From the NCBI GenBank assembly GCA_037176885.1, contig JAWWNJ010000045.1:1302001-1366000 (forward strand): DNA of 64,000 nt, in the 5' to 3' direction. The stretch's first letter is position 1. Each line of letters opens with the position of its first letter. Below the pieces are notes generated by a model. The model had not been told where the DNA came from and ran no database searches. It saw only the letters and a list, made by a program, of their open reading frames with translations. Both the position numbers and the translations under genes were made by a program. The DNA comes from Favolaschia claudopus. Lineage: Eukaryota; Basidiomycota; Agaricomycetes; Agaricales; Mycenaceae. Below are positions 30,468 through 39,785 of the stretch, piece by piece.

Positions 30468-30477
30468 CGAAATGGTA
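30468..30477. repeat. Left target-site duplication copy of the KDZ-type element
   Basis: The 10 bases CGAAATGGTA recur at 39776-39785 and nowhere else that I noticed nearby. Both copies lie 13 bases outside an inverted TGTAGAGAA box, the geometry expected of a duplicated target site around an inserted element. Confidence 0.72.
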
Positions 30478-30525
30478 TGAAAATCCGGTCTGTAGAGAAC
30501 CCGTCCGCCGGATCCGGCGTATCCG
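30478..30525 (+). repeat. Left terminal inverted repeat of the KDZ-type element
   Basis: TGTAGAGAA at 30491-30499 is followed by a GC-rich, itself palindromic block CCGTCCGCCGGATCCGGCG (30501-30519). The right end read on the minus strand has the same box at the same 13-base offset, followed after a short gap by CCGTATCCGCCGTATCCGGC. The repeat is imperfect. Confidence 0.65.
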
Positions 30526-30599
30526 CCAGACCTTACCCTGAACGACACCTCACTACTTGAACACCCTCTTTCTGTCTTTCTTGAGCCTCTGGATGTCTT

Positions 30600-31025
30600 G
30601 AACGAGCTTTGTTTTCGCTCACTCGACGCCGGTCTCCTTCACGAGTAACCGTATATTCGTTCACGAATCCCTCCTTCCTTCAAGATTTTCAGGATCCTTA
30701 ACGAGCGTTCCTTATTCGTCCACGACATCCACCCTCGTTCACGGCCGTTTCTCGCTCGTCCACGACAATCCCAACTCGTCCACGACATACCACCTCGTCC
30801 ACGACATACCACCTCGTTCACGACATCCCGTCTCGTTCACGGTCTTTGAGTACTCGTCCACGACATGCACATTCGTGAAAGGTTGTTCCTTCCTCGTCCA
30901 CGACCTCCGATTCCTTTCACGGACGTTCCTCTATCGTTCACGACATGCTCGCCGTGAATGGCTGTTCTTTACTCGTGCACGAGATTCACGCTCGTTGACG
31001 GTTCTCTCTCTATCGTTCACGGCAG
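30600..31025 (+). repeat. Left subterminal repeat array of the KDZ-type element
   Basis: About 15-20 degenerate copies of a motif around CTCGTCCACGAC / CTCGTTCACGAC recur at roughly 20-bp spacing. They are best preserved at 30716-30815, where CTCGTCCACGACATACCAC is repeated in tandem. Subterminal arrays of this kind are usually transposase binding sites. The opposite-strand form occurs at the right end. Confidence 0.75.
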
Positions 31026-31194
31026 CGCCTCTCTTCTTGTCGACCCTTCGTAACTTACATGTCTTTCACAACCAATCTTGGTAGTCGTGCACATTCAATT
31101 TCGAAATTTGTCTCTCCTGCACGAATATTCATTATGAAACCACTACATAATTTTCGACGGTCAGTCTTTCTGTGGCCTCCACCTCAACCTCGCC

Positions 31195-32912
31195 ATGTCA
31201 GACATCCCCCCGCCATACAATCACTTGCAGCACCTCGACCAGTGCACTGTATGCTTTGCGGCCCCCGACCGACCCAATCAGTACATGAGAACTATGAAAA
31301 TGAGTACAGGAGCATTGAATGCGAGTAATAAAGATGCTTGGTACCAGACGGTAATTAGGTCAATTGTTATTTGCGTTCAATATCTGACACGTCCGCAGTG
31401 CCTCAGTAATCCAGGTCCCTGCACCAACTTCAAATGGGTTCAGCGGGAAAGAGGACCTCGAAAGCGCGAAGAAGCCGCGTTTCGCTGTCCAGGCAGGTTG
31501 TGTCGTGATAGACCATGCGCTAGGGCGGGCTCTAACAGCTGCCATATCGGGCTCTGCGCGCAATGCTGTGTTCTGGCTCATCAAGAAACTGAACGTATTC
31601 CTGCCTGCCCTGTCCACCACCAGGCATTGAGAAAAATAGGGTCAGTGCTGCCAACTCCCTCTGCACCCGTCGTTCCGAGTGCAACACCTGCTCTCCCCAT
31701 TTCCGTCGTCTCTGCTACCTTAACCCCACCGACACCAACTCCACGACCCAAATCATTTGCGATTGCCATTTCGGAGACTTACCAAAATCAAATACAAGAA
31801 CTCGATGACCAGCAGATTCAGCAAGTACAAAGTGCGGCGAAGGCGCGTTCATACGCTCGCCAGGCCGCGGTTTCAGCGACCATCCAATGGTGGCATAAGG
31901 TTCGTCCCTTCACGCGGTCATTTGATTCATTTTCTCATTGTTAAATTCGCCCACAGGATGACGAGCAACCCGATGTGATAGACGTACCCGCTCCGAATCA
32001 TTATTTCCATCCCCTTCACTCGCAGATGCTGATCGACATGTACAGTCTCTCTAACAACAAGTTGTTCGAGACATTTGATCGTGTCAGCAATGTGTGGAAA
32101 GTCTCTTCGGCCACCACTCCCCCTCAGCATGTAGAGAAGGGCGTTGCTCTGCTTTATCGGAGTCGAGGTGTCAAAGCCGGGTTGGGAATGCCTCAAGGCA
32201 TGGTTTTCGGCGCACCCATGGTCGCAACAGGGAGAAGAGAGACTGAGGGCGATTACAATGCAGATGCAGACAGCGGATTGTGCGTTCAATTCTCTTATAT
32301 GTCTACTGATTTGAACACAAGCCCAGGACCGCATCTTTTTATGGTCCACCGCAAACTCCGTCTCGCTCAACTACGGTGTCTGCGCCATCGAGACTCAATA
32401 GTCCCTCACCTCCATGCTCTGCCACACCGTCCTTGACCTCATCACCCGCCACTCCAATTTCACTTTTCACATTGTCTCCGTCTCTCTCTTTTCCTTCATC
32501 TTCCGGCACCCGACCGTCACTGTCTATCTCGGACAACACCTTGGACGTCTTTGGCTCAACCCCCATTGTCCCCGCTACTACCACCACGAACACAACCCAG
32601 ATCACAAACGAGGCATTGCGTGCTGTTGTAGAGTCTGCGGTACAGGGGCCCGCGGGCTGGCCTTTCCGCTTCACACGCGATATGGCCGCTGGTTGGATAT
32701 TGTTCGACCGTATAAAAGGTTCTGTGAAATCCCGTGCCAATGATTTTCGCGCAGCATTTGGCCATGAATACAAGAATGCGACCTTCAATGACAATCGTAG
32801 GATATGGGACCGAGCTTGCAAGGAGGGAAATATAGATCCCCTGGCAATTGTTTTGAAGGATGATAGGGCGGACACCTGGAAGAAATTCCGAGCGCGTTGG
32901 CCAGCTAAATAG
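31195..32912 (+). CDS. Cysteine-cluster protein of the KDZ-type element, function unknown
   Basis: Four exons are frame-checked to 521 aa: 31195-31350, 31399-31899, 31957-32279, 32327-32912. The N-terminal 140 residues are rich in Cys/His (CTVC; CPGRLCRDRPC; NSCHIGLCAQCC; CPVHH), so a zinc-binding region is likely. Next is a Pro/Thr linker, a Gln-rich helical stretch and a long Ser/Pro/Thr region. The C-terminal 90 residues form a conserved-looking module with WPFRFTRDMAAGWILFDRI, RANDFRAAFGHEY and a final WKKFRARWPAK. I do not recognise it as a named domain. Its place directly before the transposase and in the same direction suggests a role in DNA binding or transposition. An accessory CxC-type protein is the closest known category. 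Confidence 0.72.
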
Positions 32913-33646
32913 ATCACACCGTAAATCTATCCACTTAATATTCCAAATTGTCCAAATTTTTATGCCCTTCTATTCAAGCTATTTGTACTGCACACTCAAT
33001 AATTGACGTTCTTTAATATGATATTGTTTCAAGCATTTTTGCTGGGAGTCTGAGCCGTATTAGGTACTTCAGGGGCAGGAGAACTGCGTGTCATGGATTC
33101 AGCGAAAAGTAAAGGACATAGCAAAAGCCAGAATACAACACACTTCTCTTGCACTTCGATGAGCAAAGGCAGGTCAAGCCCGGGCCCAGTTTCAGAATCG
33201 CATGCAGATTCCACTGAATATTGCCGATTTTGTGTTGCGGTAGAAGGCGCCGAAAGAAAAAGGAGCAGCGCACCAGCGTGGTCGACACAGATACCATCCG
33301 TGATCACTGCTGACAAGATGGGACCACCGAGTTCGTGGTTCTCCATTCCAGAGTTTTTCAAATGTAAAATAGTTTCGTGTATCTTGAGCGCGTCAGAAAT
33401 TGTCCGTCGTGGACAATTCTTGACGCGACTCACGTGCCAATTGCATGACATGCCCTTTCTGGATCACCACGTCACGGCAGCAGCAAACCTCAAAATTTGA
33501 AGGGAATATTTGACTCAACTCTGCCGATACTAATGATAGGCTGAGGTCTATGAGCGCATGGACAGTTACCTCTCGTATCTCGGCACTAAAATCTCAAACT
33601 CCCCCCCACCCAGTTTGCGCATTAGGTGAGTGACAACTATGTGACC
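32913..33646. other. Spacer between the two rightward transposon genes
   Basis: This contains overlapping frames of 135-140 codons on both strands (33029-33500) with no motifs, which I do not call. It presumably holds the 3' end of the cysteine-cluster gene and the transposase promoter. Confidence 0.4.
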
Positions 33647-33713
33647 GTGGCTGTCCCGCTGAGCACCTTTACCATCAGTAGATGATGGTAAAGGTGCTCA
33701 GCGGGACAGCCAC
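33647..33713. promoter_or_regulatory. Perfect 31-bp-arm inverted repeat before the transposase start
   Basis: Arms 33647-33677 and 33683-33713 are exact reverse complements around a 5-base centre (GTAGA). The right arm ends 15 bases before the transposase ATG. As RNA in the leader it would form a very stable hairpin likely to hinder translation; as DNA it could be a cruciform or a protein-binding site. It is also palindromic enough to be the relic of a fold-back insertion. Perfect identity of the arms implies recent origin or active conservation. Confidence 0.9.
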
Positions 33714-33728
33714 AGTGCGCTTGTCCTC

Positions 33729-35902
33729 ATGCCTGCCCTCGATGTTGTAGTTTCACGACTCTCCAAGTTTCCTCAGCTGTCAAACTCCGTCACTGTGTCC
33801 CAGCTTGAATCTTTTATACGACTTGCCTCACGCCTCCAGCATATCATTGTTCCAAGCAACAGCAACGAACAGCACAATCTTCGTGATCTCAGCTTGCCCG
33901 ATCCGGTGGTTGGTTTTCTTGCGGCGGTTTTGAAGCTCGCAGAACCAACTGTTCTTCTCTGTTGGGCAGCATTTGCTGACTGCATTGCTGAAAGGGTACA
34001 TCTACCATCGGAAAATGAGGCTCTTGCTTTATTCGGCTCTGCTTTTGGAATCGGTATGGAGAATTTTACTCAGATTTGTGATTTCCTCTCTTACTTCTGT
34101 GTAGTTGCTGATTGCCTCAATCCACCCGCAACCTGTAGCACGGACACCTGCAACAACGCGCGCTTGACAAAACGTCAAGAATTCACGGGAACTTTATTCA
34201 CCTTGCATCGAGGTGTTGTGCCCATTACAATTGCTTCCTTGTACTGTCATCGTACGTATGTGTAATTCCCTCTATCCTTGCAGTCCTGACTCGTGTCCGC
34301 CGTTGCGCCTACAGACTGCCATACGACGTATCATCACAATTACAAAATTCATCGCGCATCCCAGCCCTCAGCTCAACGTGAATACTATGGCGGCGTACCT
34401 GAACACATTCAAGTTTCAATGCATTTTGTTGTTGAGAGAGAGCTTGTGGTATTCTGGGAGACGCAGATGGTGTTTTCACAGTGAGCTCTCCGTGATCCGC
34501 ATTTGAGCTCTTCCCTGTTTGTTCTTACATTTCGTTTCAGTACCTCGGCTGAAAGTGCATCTCGAATATATAATCTAGCCCTTCGCGGCTCACAAGTCGA
34601 GTCCTCTGACAGATCGTTAAGTCCGGACACAATCTGGGATGCATTTTTTCTCCATGCACTGCTTCGGGATGCAGCTAAGCGTCAAACTCCGCTGTCTGTC
34701 GATCATAATGGGCTGCAAATGGATCGCTTGAACGACGCTCTTCGGGCCAGGAATGCTCGCATGGTCGGAACTGGCCAGGATCAGTGGGCACATGCATGTA
34801 ATAATTGTCAGAAGATACTGGGTCACGGTGCGCATTCATGATCATTAGCTTAGATCCCTGAGTAATTTCATGCTTCCTTCTCTAGCTCGTCTTTCGGCGT
34901 GTGTTACTGATGGAGTGACACTGGGCCATCCGTGTTGTGGAGTGCACAACTGCCAGGTTGCTCTTGCAAATCAAAAGGCATGGTATTGTCCCACACATTC
35001 TAAGTTTCGTTTTGTATGTGCTATACAGGGGTGTAATGCAAAATCAGAAGCAGGATGGCGCACCTGCTCTGCTTCTTCTCACCGAAAGTATGAAGCTGAA
35101 AAGCGAGCGGAAGGAAAAGCAATGTTTGCTCTGCGAGCCAGACAGGCTCGACACCTGGGGCAGGCAACACTTCGAGCCCCGGCTAGCGATATTGATTATC
35201 TTGATGAAGTTCTCGAAGACGACACCTGCGACCTCCAACCCATTTCTTCTCAATCATCCTCGAAAATTAGAGGACGTTTAGGTAGACGCTGGACACACAA
35301 TGAGCAGTTGATGGTTCGCTGTTGTGGTATTATCGTCTCGCGAGCTACATTCTTTGGTTCGGAAGCGATCACATCTGTGAAGGTCAGTTCGACACTATTC
35401 AATGTGTAACCAATTATTGAGCCGCATTCAGCAATTCATACACGTCACCTTTCCTGTCAATTTCCCCGGCTCTCTGCCTTCTTTCATCTGGTATGACAAC
35501 AATTGTCAGCTGCTTCGGCATCTCTTTGCCTCCACAGATCCTAGAGATGCTCGACTAGCTGATGTCGGGTTTCCTGTCGATGTCTTCCACGCATCACGGA
35601 AGCACAAGGACTCTGACGAGTTTTGTGTCTTCAATTGCTCTCCCGTAACATTTCCGGAGCTTATGGACGGGAAGAATTGGGTGTTTAACTCATCTGCTGC
35701 TGAACAAACCAACAAATGGTTCGGACAATTCCAGCCAATTGTCAAGGAGATGGCTGTCTTACGCTACAATTTCTTTCTCGATGAGATGATCAGCTTGCGA
35801 AACGAGTGGATGGTAGAGCGTTTGCGCCTTGAAGGGCATCGGCCGCACTTCATACCATTGGAAGATTTGGAAGTACGATTACCATTGTCATCATCGGTAT
35901 AA
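33729..35902 (+). CDS. KDZ-type transposase with CxC5 and CxC6 cysteine clusters
   Basis: Six exons are frame-checked to 630 aa: 33729-34053, 34105-34251, 34315-34480, 34541-34827, 34886-35382, 35432-35902. Residues about 110-230 match the CxC5 pattern (CLNPPATCSTDTCNNARL, LFTLHRGVVPITIASLYC, CHTTYHHNYKIH). Residues about 320-390 match CxC6 (VTDGVTLGHPCCGVHNC, YCPTHSKFRFVC, WRTCSASSHRKY). The C-terminal third is the KDZ transposase end: SFIWYDNNCQLLRHLF, VDVFHASRKHKDSDEFC, WVFNSSAAEQTNKWFG and RYNFFLDEMISLRNEW. Plausible catalytic acids are the D of TDG, the D of YDNNC and the E of AAEQTN; this assignment is inference. The frame is intact, so the protein could still be active. Confidence 0.85.
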
Positions 35903-35913
35903 TTGTAAAACTA

Positions 35914-37540
35914 CTAAGAAACCGTTTGCCCTTTAAGTTCAGCTTCTACTTGAGCTTTCTGCTGTTTTTCCACTGCCGCCTCAAGGAACTCAATCCATGC
36001 TTTGATGCCCCAATACGCATCTTCCATATCACCGTCAAGATGCGCCTTCACAGATGGAATGTGGCTTGCAACGACCTGTAACGCTCCTGCCGTCTTGGCT
36101 TTTCCAACCCAGTCGGCAGTGCGAGAGAGAAAGTTGGCCAAACAGGCATTTGTGATCTGTGTGCGACCAACCTCATCGCAGTCTTCATCCGGTGTAATGT
36201 TTCCGAGGATATAGACATATGAGCAAAATATCGCCAACGCACAAGTGGGTCTGGGCTGTTTTAATTTTTCCTTGGAACGAATGGCGGCTGAAATAGCATT
36301 TTCGTAGTCCGACGGCCCTCGTAGCCATTCAAGTTGGGCACTGTCCCTTTCGGCGACTGTCCCACTACGCGCTACGGATCCTGCTCGAACAGACGGAGTA
36401 GAACGGTTGGATTTAACGGTAACCTGCCTGTACTCTGTGTCATCCTCGCTGCCGAGTACAGAGGCCGAACGCTTTGTATCCATTTCTTTCTGTTTTGGGT
36501 CTGCGTCAAAGAGGGAGGATGTGGTGGAAACGGAACACACATTGTTTCCCTTTGACCCATGAGGCTCAAGGGAGTCGAGATAAATGGTCAGTGTATGTTT
36601 GCATCCAGTGGAAGCTTCGGCAGCTTCAAGGTGGAGTTCAGGGAAATCGGGGATCCCTACGCAGTCTGCACCTTCCCTAATTACGTAGAAGGCAGACCGA
36701 AGTGGGATGCCTCCAACTGTCAGACCAATAGACAGCCGAGCAGCACCGGTGACCCTCTCCGATGAGGACTGCAGCTGTTCGATGAGCTCTTTGGTGTTGA
36801 CGAGATACTTCCCCGGGCTGTCGTCTTCGTGTACGCCATATATGAAGAGGGTGGCAGCGCGAGGCATCACAGTGGTGCTTCTTTCGTCCACCAAGATGAG
36901 GAAAACCTTGACCATTTGACGATCCTGTGGCTCCACCGAAGGTGAGGATGCAGGAACTTCTGCCTTGGGTTGCAGCGGTTTCGGTGATTTGTTTTCAGGA
37001 GGAGATTGCTACCAAAATACATTCAGTGGGTAGGACGAAAAAAAGAAGAAAAAGAAACATGAGGTAGTGAGAAACCTACACACCGAAAATCCGGCTGGAA
37101 GACTGAGATTACCATTAGCAATCTCGACCATCAAGAAGTGGTCAATATTGCGGTTCTCGAAACTGGTGTGTTGTTCGTATGCCTCGAGGTCCAAATTAAT
37201 TGCTGCCTTTGCTGCCTGCGAGATGTAAGACCAGTTGGCCGAAATTTTCAGCGCGACAGCGTGATTGCAGGCTGCTGCATGGTCGGTGATCTTCCAAGAA
37301 CCCCTCAGTTGGTTGACGTTGCGATGGAGCTTAATGAGACTCTCAAGGTGCTCCTTAGTCAGAGGAAGAGGGATAAATTGAGTGAGACGCACCTTGAGCA
37401 TATTAATATCCAATGATGCACTGGTTGAGACGGGCTAAGTGAAAAAGAAGCCCAGAGAGTGCAGGACGAGCAACATACAGATATTCTGCATTCAAGATCT
37501 CACGTTGCACTGTTTCAGAGCCGTCAACGCTGGAAGACAT
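35914..37540 (-). CDS. Unknown 497-aa protein carried by the KDZ-type element
   Basis: Three exons are frame-checked: 37479-37540, 37084-37420, 35914-37008. I do not recognise any domain. Exon 2 encodes a helical segment (HLESLIKLHRNVNQLRGSW, ALKISANWSYISQAAKAA). Exon 3 begins with a Pro/Ser linker and continues with a beta-rich stretch (VKVFLILVDE, RLSIGLTVGGIPLRSAFYVI). After a serine-rich middle, the last 130 residues are helical (EWLRGPSDYENAISAAIRSK, CALAIFCSYVYILGN) and end in a likely coiled coil. It is transcribed toward the transposase, with only 11 bp between their stop codons. It is probably an element-encoded accessory or a captured host gene. Confidence 0.7.
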
Positions 37541-37842
37541 AGTTGCTGAGGTTTCAGATGGTAAGGCAAGAAGGAGAAAATTGAGCAGTGCGGCGGCTAC
37601 GCTAGTACAAATGTCAAAGACGAAGCCGGATCACTTCATCGTGCGCAAACTAATTGGCGGCACAATTCAGACTTTGAGTATTGGAAAGTTGTTCCTGCTT
37701 GTCTTACGGTTTGAACAATTGCAGGAGCCCGTAGTAATCAAGACTTTCAGGACCATGAGAAGAAACCCGCTCGCCAAATTTATTGTATAACGCCGACACG
37801 AGCAATTTGTGGATCTACTGTACTGGCCCCTCCCCTACTGTA

Positions 37843-38965
37843 TTACGAGTCCTCAGCGGGAAACATCAAAGCTCCGTACGTCGAACTGGCTAGAAGGTTT
37901 TCAATTGCTTTGGCGTAATCTATGTGCATGTCGTCCATGATGAGTCGAGTCGCCACCTCCGGCATTAGAACGAAAGAGATCAACTGTAGAACTGTGAGAG
38001 GTAGAGCAGTTTCATTGCTCATCTTGAGAACACGTAGCAATGTGTGGTGGATGATTTGTTGGCCTTGCTCCCCGTAGCTAGATCAGTGAGTTAGTTCACT
38101 ATCATAGCCTGGTGGGAACATGAGGCTCACTATCCAGGTTGCGTGAAATGAGAATTCGAAAAATTGCCTGCAAGGCCAACGTTGGCCTTGTTCGTCACCT
38201 TGACCGCATTTGTCCAAAAGAAATTGGTCCCGCGAGGGCCGTTTGCGTCCCCGCTAGTGTCATCAACCAGTGTTTGTAGGAAGCTGGCCATAGATTCAAC
38301 CCGTCGCTCTACATCCTGAAAATCTATAACTGCCTTCCACCCAAAATACTGGGCTTTGGGGATGAGATCGCGCTCCAGTCGATGCTGAGCACAAATTGGT
38401 GCTTTCACGGCTGTCAGTGCCATTCGGCCGAGAGAGTTGTCTGGTCGAGGGTCGGCAGTAGAGTTTTGAAGTGCGGTGTTCAGCAAGAGCTGCAACTTAG
38501 CAGATGGAGACTGCGGAAGGGGGAGGTCGCAATAAGGACAGAGAGTTTCTGGGTTGAGAAGGGCTACATGTACATGCTGTCAGCTATCAAATAAATAGTA
38601 GAAGCGAAGCGGGAAACACGTACGGGGCTCAGCCTCAGCAATCTCCTCGTATTTGCGCTGCACAAGAGGCGCTAAAACTCTCCTGTGCGATTATTACAGC
38701 AAACACGAGCAGACAGACAGATAGAAACTTACAGGTCATCTTCATTTTTTATCTTGACCTGGATGTTGCGCTCCGTCTCGAGCACCCTTTCTTCCGCCGA
38801 CAACCCCTTTTTTTTCGACGGCTTGAGCCTATGACCACGTCCGGAGGGGGCAGACTTTTTGCTAGGGATAGCTTTCGACCCATCTTTAGGTAGGGTTTTA
38901 TCCCCGAGCGCTACCCAACGTTGCACTAATTCGTCCATGTCAGGGACTGTTCGCGCGGCCGACAT
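37843..38965 (-). CDS. RTC4-domain protein carried by the KDZ-type element
   Basis: Four exons with consistent splicing; exon 1 is 38733-38965 and the last exon ends at 37843. The N-terminal 80 residues are Lys/Ser/Pro-rich and basic (GRGHRLKPSKKKG), suiting nuclear DNA or chromatin binding. The rest matches the RTC4-like domain: LCPYCDLPLPQSPSAKLQLL, then APICAQHRLERDLIPKA, GWKAVIDFQDVERRVESM, and after the last intron YYGEQGQQIIHHTLLRVL and LISFVLMPEVATRLIMDDM. The CxxC plus CxxH pairs look like a zinc site. In yeast the domain was named from telomere-capping genetics; its biochemical role is unknown. Presence between transposon ends suggests it serves the element. Confidence 0.78.
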
Positions 38966-39289
38966 AGTGGACAAAGAAAAAGAGTGGCGCCACCTCAGAA
39001 TGACGCGTATATTATTTAGTCGATGTTTGCCGAACACTCTTGAGGTTGTTGAAGACGTCGTAGCATCCGTGATCGGTCCTGACGAACTCGTTCAAGAGAA
39101 TTGGCGGATCTTGTATTGAGTGATCTGAACGATTATCTTTAGATTTCACGCCCCGTACAAAAGAGGCTGAAACGAGCCTAATCTAGCACAAGACGATGGT
39201 GTTGAGCACGGTCGAAATCGCTGGCCGCTTGCATAATCCAAGCAGAAGTCACCGTGAATGTGCCCGAGAGTTTATAATAGTCAAAGTTC
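38966..39289. other. Upstream region of the RTC4-domain gene
   Basis: The promoter side of the leftward RTC4-domain gene, ending where the right subterminal array begins. No further gene is supported. Confidence 0.45.
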
Positions 39290-39705
39290 CCGTATGAGAG
39301 GAGTGTGTCGTGGTTGAGCCAAGACATTCTTGAACGAGTGGAGTCCTCGTGCTCGAGATCATCAGCATCGTGAAAGGTATCCGTGATGCTGAACGAGTGT
39401 CATGGGTGTGCACGAGCCGAGAGTCCTTGAACGAGCCCGAGACTCGTGTTCGAGGTGGTCAATCTTGAACGAGTCTGAGACTCGTGCTCGGAGTGGTTAA
39501 GGTCTTGAACGAGAAGACGTATTCGTGTTCCAAGGTATGCAATCGTGAAGGAGCGCAACATTCGTGCACGGATTGAACAATCCTGAACGAGACGGGTGAC
39601 CTTGAACGATTATGCCGAAGCTGAACGAGGTGGAATGTCGTTTTCGATGTGAATGGAATCGTGCAAGAGCTGTATTTACTCGTGAACGCCGGCTATTCTC
39701 GTTCA
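39290..39705 (-). repeat. Right subterminal repeat array of the KDZ-type element
   Basis: Around ten copies of GAACGAG (mostly CTTGAACGAG or CTGAACGAG) occur, with intervening GACTCGTG(T/C)TCG copies at roughly 50-bp spacing between 39420 and 39530. Read on the minus strand this is CTCGTTCAAG, close to the CTCGTTCACG motif of the left array, so the arrays are in inverted orientation relative to each other. Confidence 0.72.
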
Positions 39706-39719
39706 CGATGCCGTCCGCC

Positions 39720-39775
39720 GGATCCGCCGGATACGGCGGATACGGCAGTTCAATTCTCTACACATTACTTGTTCT
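39720..39775 (-). repeat. Right terminal inverted repeat of the KDZ-type element
   Basis: The box TTCTCTACA (39754-39762) is the complement of TGTAGAGAA at the left end and lies the same 13 bases from the flanking direct repeat. The GC-rich block CCGCCGGATACGGCGGATAC lies just inside it. The 15 bases from 39711 also repeat those from 30501 in direct orientation, because the block is itself palindromic. Confidence 0.65.
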
Positions 39776-39785
39776 CGAAATGGTA
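39776..39785. repeat. Right target-site duplication copy of the KDZ-type element
   Basis: A second copy of CGAAATGGTA, identical to 30468-30477. See the left copy. Confidence 0.72.

Follow-up and report, generated by a model that had tools for sequence, protein, structure and literature searches.

Proteins with the CxC5 and CxC6 cysteine clusters are numerous in mushrooms, where they are filed as KDZ-associated; the CxC names reportedly originate from Iyer et al. in 2014. Pfam also describes both clusters as associated with KDZ transposases, as a preliminary description of the present locus had stated. KDZ elements (Kyakuja, Dileera and Zisupton, and KDZ1-3 of Cryptococcus), large DNA transposons of fungi, encode a cysteine cluster, and some of them carry other genes (TET/JBP); Zisupton, one Dileera family and KDZ1 are described as making 8-bp duplications (available passages of PMC12730594 and PMC12810828). 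In sporeless Pleurotus ostreatus, MSH4 contains a 6,792-bp CxC5/CxC6 'insert', for which the authors proposed the involvement of a Copia retrotransposon (available passages of PMC7641404).

The window analysed here, a stretch of 64,000 nucleotides from the wood-rotting mushroom Favolaschia claudopus, contains a DNA transposon of 9,300 bp with four genes, g1 to g4 (Table 1). It resembles the Pleurotus insert, a multi-copy insertion with a CxC5/CxC6 open reading frame (739 aa) near which no KDZ transposase was found; for that insert, however, the passages at hand describe neither ends nor a duplication, and neither a catalytic core nor an RTC4 partner (PMC7641404). It differs from KDZ elements by its CxC5/CxC6 clusters, its short imperfect ends, its RTC4-domain protein and the absence of any Pfam match to a TET/JBP dioxygenase at E <= 1 in its four proteins. 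According to the passages on them, KDZ1-3 have terminal repeats of 139 to 241 bp and a KDZ domain with CxC1, and Kyakuja has 7-bp duplications and no terminal repeats (PMC12730594, PMC12810828). We consider, with a probability of about 0.85, that the Favolaschia element is a complete DDE, cut-and-paste DNA transposon, in which g2 is the cutting enzyme and RTC4 a recurrent partner.

Table 1. Features of the Favolaschia claudopus transposon (positions in the window)
Feature	Position	Strand	Basis
Left target-site duplication GAAATGGT	30469..30476	.	10-copy end comparison; single GAAATTGT at unoccupied C10 paralogous site
Whole transposon	30477..39776	.	Both ends in 10 copies; full-length match in C34 and C5
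Left end: 14-bp tip ATGAAAATCCGGTC, inverted block TGTAGAGAA (30491-30499), GC-rich block	30477..30530	+	
Left subterminal array, CTCGTTCACGA-like sites, pitch about 20 bp	30634..31022	+	Motif counts
g1: 521 aa, 4 exons (31195-31350, 31399-31899, 31957-32279, 32327-32912)	31195..32912	+	
Near-perfect 34-bp inverted repeat, 5-bp spacer, 12 bp before g2 start codon	33644..33716	.	
g2: CxC5/CxC6 transposase, 630 aa, 6 exons (33729-34053, 34105-34251, 34315-34480, 34541-34827, 34886-35382, 35432-35902)	33729..35902	+	
g3: 497 aa, 3 exons (37479-37540, 37084-37420, 35914-37008)	35914..37540	-	
g4: RTC4-domain protein, 319 aa, 4 exons (38733-38965, 38624-38682, 38131-38563, 37843-38077)	37843..38965	-	
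Right subterminal array, orientation mostly opposite to left	39328..39690	-	Motif counts
Right end: GC-rich block, inverted block TTCTCTACA (39754-39762), 14-bp tip	39711..39776	-	
Right target-site duplication GAAATGGT	39777..39784	.	10-copy end comparison

The edges were set by the ends common to ten copies. The sequence CGAAATGGTA is found at 30468-30477 and again at 39776-39785, and had been taken for a 10-bp direct repeat; since all ten copies start with ATGAAAAT and finish with CTTGTTCTC, the true duplication is the 8-bp GAAATGGT, to which the outer C and A add one chance match per side. The 8-bp duplications of the ten copies are all perfect and all different. Three copies (that of the window, C45, together with C34 and C5) contain the four genes in the same order, and seven do not; C34 and C5 align to the window element along its whole length; they share its genes and ends but have duplications of their own, which the preliminary description had named as support. 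For seven of the ten insertions, including that of the window, an unoccupied counterpart exists. At the paralogous site in C10, the permease 3' flank is followed by a single GAAATTGT and the right flank, almost as foreseen in the preliminary description. The element has therefore moved as one unit with its four genes, producing an 8-bp duplication. A fixed host gene cluster, bordered by repeats through chance, would account for the shared gene order and for nothing more; ten different duplications, unrelated flanks and unoccupied sites refute it, and its probability is practically nil.

Short copies with the element's own ends also exist, among them the 2.4-kb copies C200, C26 and C57. C11 was considered as a larger autonomous element: its ends match those of these three, but they enclose 17.2 kb of other sequence in which tblastn with the gene panel was negative, and we rejected it. 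In the stretches around six orphan left ends (C304, C30, C3, C186, C152 and C123), neither a gene-panel match nor a right end was found.

The transposase is strongly indicated to be the CxC5/CxC6 protein itself, as predicted from its modelled fold. g2 matches CxC5 (E 1.4e-33) and CxC6 (E 6e-24) in Pfam, and its AlphaFold model (pLDDT 89) contains an RNase H core, inside which the CxC6 cluster falls, with a candidate catalytic set D317/D496/E565 that is conserved in 56, 55 and 56 of 56 aligned relatives, respectively. A Foldseek search with the model returned nothing at E <= 0.001. Identity with the ISCth4 transposase (6xg8_A), a member of the IS256 family, is 4%; ISCth4 is an insertion sequence of bacteria and is not known to have CxC clusters or partner genes. 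Searching PDB sequences with the alignments of RTC4, the transposase and g3 gave nothing convincing; the best match, of the transposase profile to a foldase (E 0.0077), falls outside the catalytic core and was discarded.

The question arises as to whether the element deserves the label 'KDZ-type' initially given to it. All 56 aligned relatives of g2 match CxC5 and CxC6, and none has a listed match to the KDZ transposase in Pfam at E <= 1, in a search run without a positive control, so that the label is unproven. KDZ-like features are nevertheless present, namely the KDZ-associated cysteine clusters and a duplication of 8 bp, the length known from Zisupton and Dileera. They fit a g2 that is a KDZ transposase too distant for the Pfam model, to which we give slightly less than even odds; the 'YDxxC'-like motif at its second aspartate, which presumably resembles that of KDZ proteins, also counts for this view, and the 0/56 count, with the reservation just given, against it. 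If it were true, the family name would change and the mechanism would be unaffected. The same Pfam association, together with the 8-bp duplications that KDZ elements also make (available passages of PMC12730594 and PMC12810828), could instead mean that a KDZ transposase from elsewhere cuts the element and that the CxC5/CxC6 protein is a mere accessory. This we regard as very improbable, given that a predicted RNase H core and its conserved D-D-E set lie in g2 itself, that no gene of the three full copies has a listed KDZ match (Pfam, E <= 1), and that the intact KDZ elements of Pleurotus have CxC2, never CxC5/CxC6, in the passages at hand of PMC7641404. The Favolaschia element gives CxC5/CxC6 genes a mobile context in which the ends, the 8-bp duplication and short derivatives are defined and a protein has a predicted catalytic core, and the insert that disrupted MSH4 in sporeless Pleurotus thereby becomes testable as a DNA transposon.

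The four gene models proposed earlier hold, among them that of the protein of 497 aa, and so does the RTC4 domain. Comparison of the window copy with C34 and C5 gives dN/dS ratios of 0.07 to 0.37 (g1, 0.37 and 0.29; g2, 0.10 and 0.07; g3, 0.22 and 0.21; g4, 0.36 and 0.20), which indicate that all four genes are under purifying selection (g4 versus C34 alone, p = 0.063); g3 of C34 carries a 1-nt deletion. g1 is cysteine-rich in its N-terminal half and has no Pfam match at E <= 1. g3 has no known domain, and its fold prediction (pLDDT 31, from 4 sequences) is unusable; it looks lineage-specific, and may have been added in this lineage.

RTC4 is a telomere-linked yeast protein whose function is poorly known. 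g4 has the PF14474 domain in common with it (E 5e-16, 59.4 bits versus a gathering score of 23.7; residues 231-314 aligned to profile positions 30-120 of 121), preceded by a conserved CPYC...C..H stretch, but lies inside a transposon. At least 13 further RTC4 loci exist in the F. claudopus genome, and the flanks of six were covered (C12, C4, C30, C17, C105, C21 and C16 were left out). In five of these six, a diverged CxC5/CxC6 transposase gene lies immediately tail-to-tail with RTC4, in four independent families; the sixth, C22, is without transposase. The linkage of RTC4 to the transposase thus extends beyond this one unit, and beyond what the preliminary description had noted. These five loci support the view that RTC4 recurrently accompanies this class of transposase as a partner instead of being one-off cargo. 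More weakly, g1 may be another partner: a frame with modest similarity to its C terminus is present in two of the five loci, and tblastn with g1 gave a match in C7 (E 0.001) and none in C37 or C140.

RTC4 is not always present, since the relative in C212 has g2 and g3 with neither RTC4 nor g1 within 10 kb. That locus, and the short copies that move without any of the four genes, would suit a scenario in which RTC4, g1 and g3 are passengers captured by chance and kept through their position inside the element. Purifying selection on all four genes (with the p value above for g4) makes this unlikely, as does the fact that RTC4 recurs next to diverged transposases of four independent families. 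Of the seven RTC4 relatives listed in other species, only one putatively lies on the contig of a listed transposase, and one on that of a g3 relative. Only 2 of 10 inner branches of the RTC4 tree were starred, and we therefore make no statement on the origin of the transposon RTC4.

Among the CC-licensed papers listed as matches, none contains both RTC4 and KDZ. PMC9370660 and PMC5948300 mention RTC4 and 'transposon', but the available RTC4 passages draw no link between them. PMC9674265 does not mention KDZ or CxC. The association with DNA transposition might account in part for expansions of RTC4, for instance to the 45 copies that the available passages of PMC9370660 report from a rust fungus.

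As for the ends, the block TGTAGAGAA was rightly described as inverted at both: each carries this 9-bp block 14 bp inside, with related GC-rich blocks and opposed arrays, while the outermost 14 bp form no clear inverted repeats. The arrays are real: with at most 2 mismatches, the left 500 bp contain 15 sites of CTCGTTCACGA and the right 420 bp contain 11 on the other strand. In 1000 first-order Markov simulations, the means were 0.49 and 0.27, and the count never exceeded 3. Orientation is mixed, with 16 plus and 3 minus sites below element position 700, and 11 minus and 2 plus above 8800. The CxC clusters, g1 or both might act as the DNA-binding part that reads these sites, which follow one another at about two helical turns, and pairs the ends; g2 would then cut the ends and join them to a target cut with an 8-bp stagger, short copies would be mobilised in trans, and RTC4 could, at a guess, assist in the handling, repair or shielding of DNA ends. 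Tentatively, CxC5/CxC6 proteins could be the transposases of their own superfamily-level DNA transposon lineage, many with RTC4 and a g1-like cysteine protein as dedicated second and third transposition proteins, RTC4 handling or shielding the ends, and g3 being a later Mycenaceae addition; we put this somewhat below an even chance.

In the flanks of the RTC4-transposase locus C7, the 20-bp phasing is absent. The inverted repeat upstream of g2 has an RNA fold z of -11.6, and is also present in C34 and C5.

The window element is a mobile unit that has defined ends and carries four genes. Used as queries, its left and right ends gave at least 16 and at least 14 matches, respectively, in the F. 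claudopus genome, and both ends were present in ten copies, named here after their contigs: C45 (the window copy), C34, C5, C11, C26, C200, C57, C237, C7 and C91. Every one of them begins with ATGAAAAT at its left end, finishes with CTTGTTCTC at its right end and is flanked by a perfect 8-bp duplication that differs from all the others; the first base of the duplication is a purine in nine copies, and the eighth is a pyrimidine in nine. The preliminary description had placed a 10-bp direct repeat at the edges: 8 bp of it are the real duplication, and the one outer base on each side is a chance match. As far as the available portions of the reports go, Zisupton and a Dileera family (PMC12730594) and Cryptococcus KDZ1, an element of about 11 kb with 241-bp repeats and CxC1 (PMC12810828), likewise make 8-bp duplications, unlike Kyakuja with its 7 bp (PMC12730594). 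For six further left ends, no right end was found in the stretches read around them. One flank of these orphans is common to C30 and C3, and one to C186, C152 and C123, and we propose that they may have travelled with a duplication or with another repeat.

Flanks were joined at all 10 junctions and then used for searching, and an unoccupied counterpart was found for seven of the ten insertions. Matches crossed the junction for C200 (up to 100%), C11 (98%), C91 (98%), C5 (95%, three places), C57 (93%) and C237 (88%, partial), with none for C34, C26 and C7 among the matches listed (40 of 96 candidates scored). The window junction matched two paralogous places at 74%, on C234 and C10 (40 of 67 candidates scored). 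Base-by-base inspection covered C45 and C5. The C10 place reads permease 3' flank, a single GAAATTGT, right flank, almost the unoccupied site that had been predicted; at the C234 place, a small deletion removes most of this stretch. Both inspected unoccupied C5 sites hold a single GGCCTCTC.

Other loci with the whole unit, anticipated from the window alone, do exist: C34 (94.8%, end to end) and C5 (91.9%, then 84.1%) match the window copy over its full length and have their own, different 8-bp duplications. The other seven copies have only the ends and subterminal parts in common with it, and the gene panel gave no match in them (tblastn, E <= 0.01). Six of these short copies measure 1.7 to 2.6 kb, and C11 is a 2.4-kb type copy that also contains 17.2 kb of other sequence, probably a nested element. 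Identity among the three full copies forms a mosaic (see table), which suggests that exchange may have taken place between them. In the part of the genome report available, the assembly is 265 Mb with 86.8% of BUSCO genes duplicated (PMC10905254), so that much sequence is present twice.

Positions of features in the window, or on the contig or contig stretch named
Feature	Position	Observation
Near-perfect inverted repeat	33644-33716	34-bp arms, 97%, 5-bp spacer; ends 12 bp before the g2 start codon
Right part of the element	35877-39776	right third of C45 and C34 nearly identical; window g3 diverges in places at which C34 and C5 are closer to each other
Stretch within it	36777-37076	identity C45-C34 0.864 versus C34-C5 0.930
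Remainder	from 37077 on	C45-C34 0.970-0.997; C45-C5 0.83-0.91
C11 short copy with internal sequence	C11:159744-179743	
Stretch in the C212 transposase gene	L044:4150-4814	about 0.6 kb, perfect 27-bp inverted ends

The gene models, all with GT-AG introns, encode proteins of 521 aa (g1, with a cysteine-rich N-terminal half), 630 aa (g2, the CxC5/CxC6 protein), 497 aa (g3, without known domain) and 319 aa (g4, RTC4 domain). Transferred to C34 and C5, they keep GT-AG at every intron and their frames stay open, save g3 of C34, which has a 1-nt deletion; in C5, g3 and g4 lack a stop codon at the aligned position, and their proteins therefore end slightly further on. Nei-Gojobori dN/dS ratios against C34 and C5, respectively, were 0.37 and 0.29 for g1, 0.10 and 0.07 for g2, 0.22 and 0.21 for g3, and 0.36 and 0.20 for g4 (p < 0.003 in seven of eight tests, the exception being g4 against C34, p = 0.063). 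The inverted repeat ahead of g2 is also found in C34 and C5, and a 161-nt stretch containing it folds as RNA at -87.7 kcal/mol (z -11.6). The question arises as to whether it is a leader hairpin or a source of small RNA.

That g2 is the DDE transposase of the window element is strongly indicated; roles for the RTC4 protein, g1 and g3 are ones that we infer. In Pleurotus ostreatus, MSH4 is broken by an insert of 6,792 bp whose CxC5/CxC6 ORF encodes 739 aa. According to the accessible text of that report, the authors saw no KDZ transposase nearby, intact KDZ elements of the species carry CxC2, and an involvement of Copia was proposed (PMC7641404). A simpler reading, which we offer here, would be that the CxC5/CxC6 protein itself is the transposase.

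RTC4 appears to be a recurrent partner of such transposases, as supported by five loci. Besides the three full elements, g4 matched at least 13 further contigs (best match E 9.9e-21, 42% over 103 residues), and three of these contigs have two RTC4 stretches each. Six loci were examined (C140, C7, C37, C13, C1 and C22; left out were C12, C4, C30, C17, C105, C21 and C16), and at the first five RTC4 has a CxC5/CxC6 transposase gene as its immediate tail-to-tail neighbour, with about 8 to 75 bp between the matched stretches. All five transposases have the D, D and E motifs and are 27 to 63% identical to g2 by stretches. For C13 and C1, the reading covered just 1.2 kb on the 3' side; the two show 99.6% identity across 1,177 bp, and the five loci thus represent four independent families. 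The pair may be alleles, or else copies that arose recently within another element family. At C22, where RTC4 lies in a longer open frame, no transposase was found within 8 kb, and this RTC4 is probably the host gene. Near the C7 and C37 loci, a cysteine-cluster frame (seen by eye) is followed by a stretch resembling the g1 C-terminus (BLASTP E 3e-5 and 4e-4 against the C7 and C37 pieces alone; profile E 3.5e-4, where the best among 2000 shuffles reached 0.07). With g1 as query, tblastn gave a match at C7 (E 0.001) and none at C37 or C140.

The subterminal arrays consist of CTCGTTCACGA-like sites, 16 on the plus and 3 on the minus strand at the left end, 11 minus and 2 plus at the right. In the three full copies they are spaced by 19-22, 38-42, 59 or 78 bp (exceptions 102, 102, 92 and 45); short copies also have such sites, in less clean orientation. 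At the left end, 139 of 158 six-mer coincidences fall at lags near multiples of 20 (total expected 25.5), and at the right end 54 of 61 do so (total expected 14.3). This phasing of about 20 bp would fit a protein reading one face of the helix. The C37 RTC4-transposase locus has opposed subterminal repeats spaced by 38-40 and 79 bp, with an interior control that also gave 21 of 32 phased coincidences, their source being one 20-bp tandem repeat; the flanks of the C7 locus showed no phasing of about 20 bp.

Outside Favolaschia, two of seven RTC4 relatives probably share a contig with a relative of a second gene of the unit, which does not imply any distance between the paired genes. RTC4 and a 68% identical transposase in Mycena epipterygia each lie on a contig of 1,312,397 bases, and RTC4 and g3 in M. 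galopus each on one of 1,014,886; given the equal base counts, each pair is probably on one contig. Database relatives of g3 (7,998 candidates scored) are one each from the C5 contig, C212, M. galopus and M. belliarum, and within the genome g3 occurs in the three full elements, at C212 and as a broken piece at C75. At C212, g3 and a g2 relative (72-83% by stretches) are convergent, with neither g1 nor RTC4 in the 10 kb read. The C212 transposase gene contains a short stretch with perfect inverted ends (see table), probably a small inserted element.
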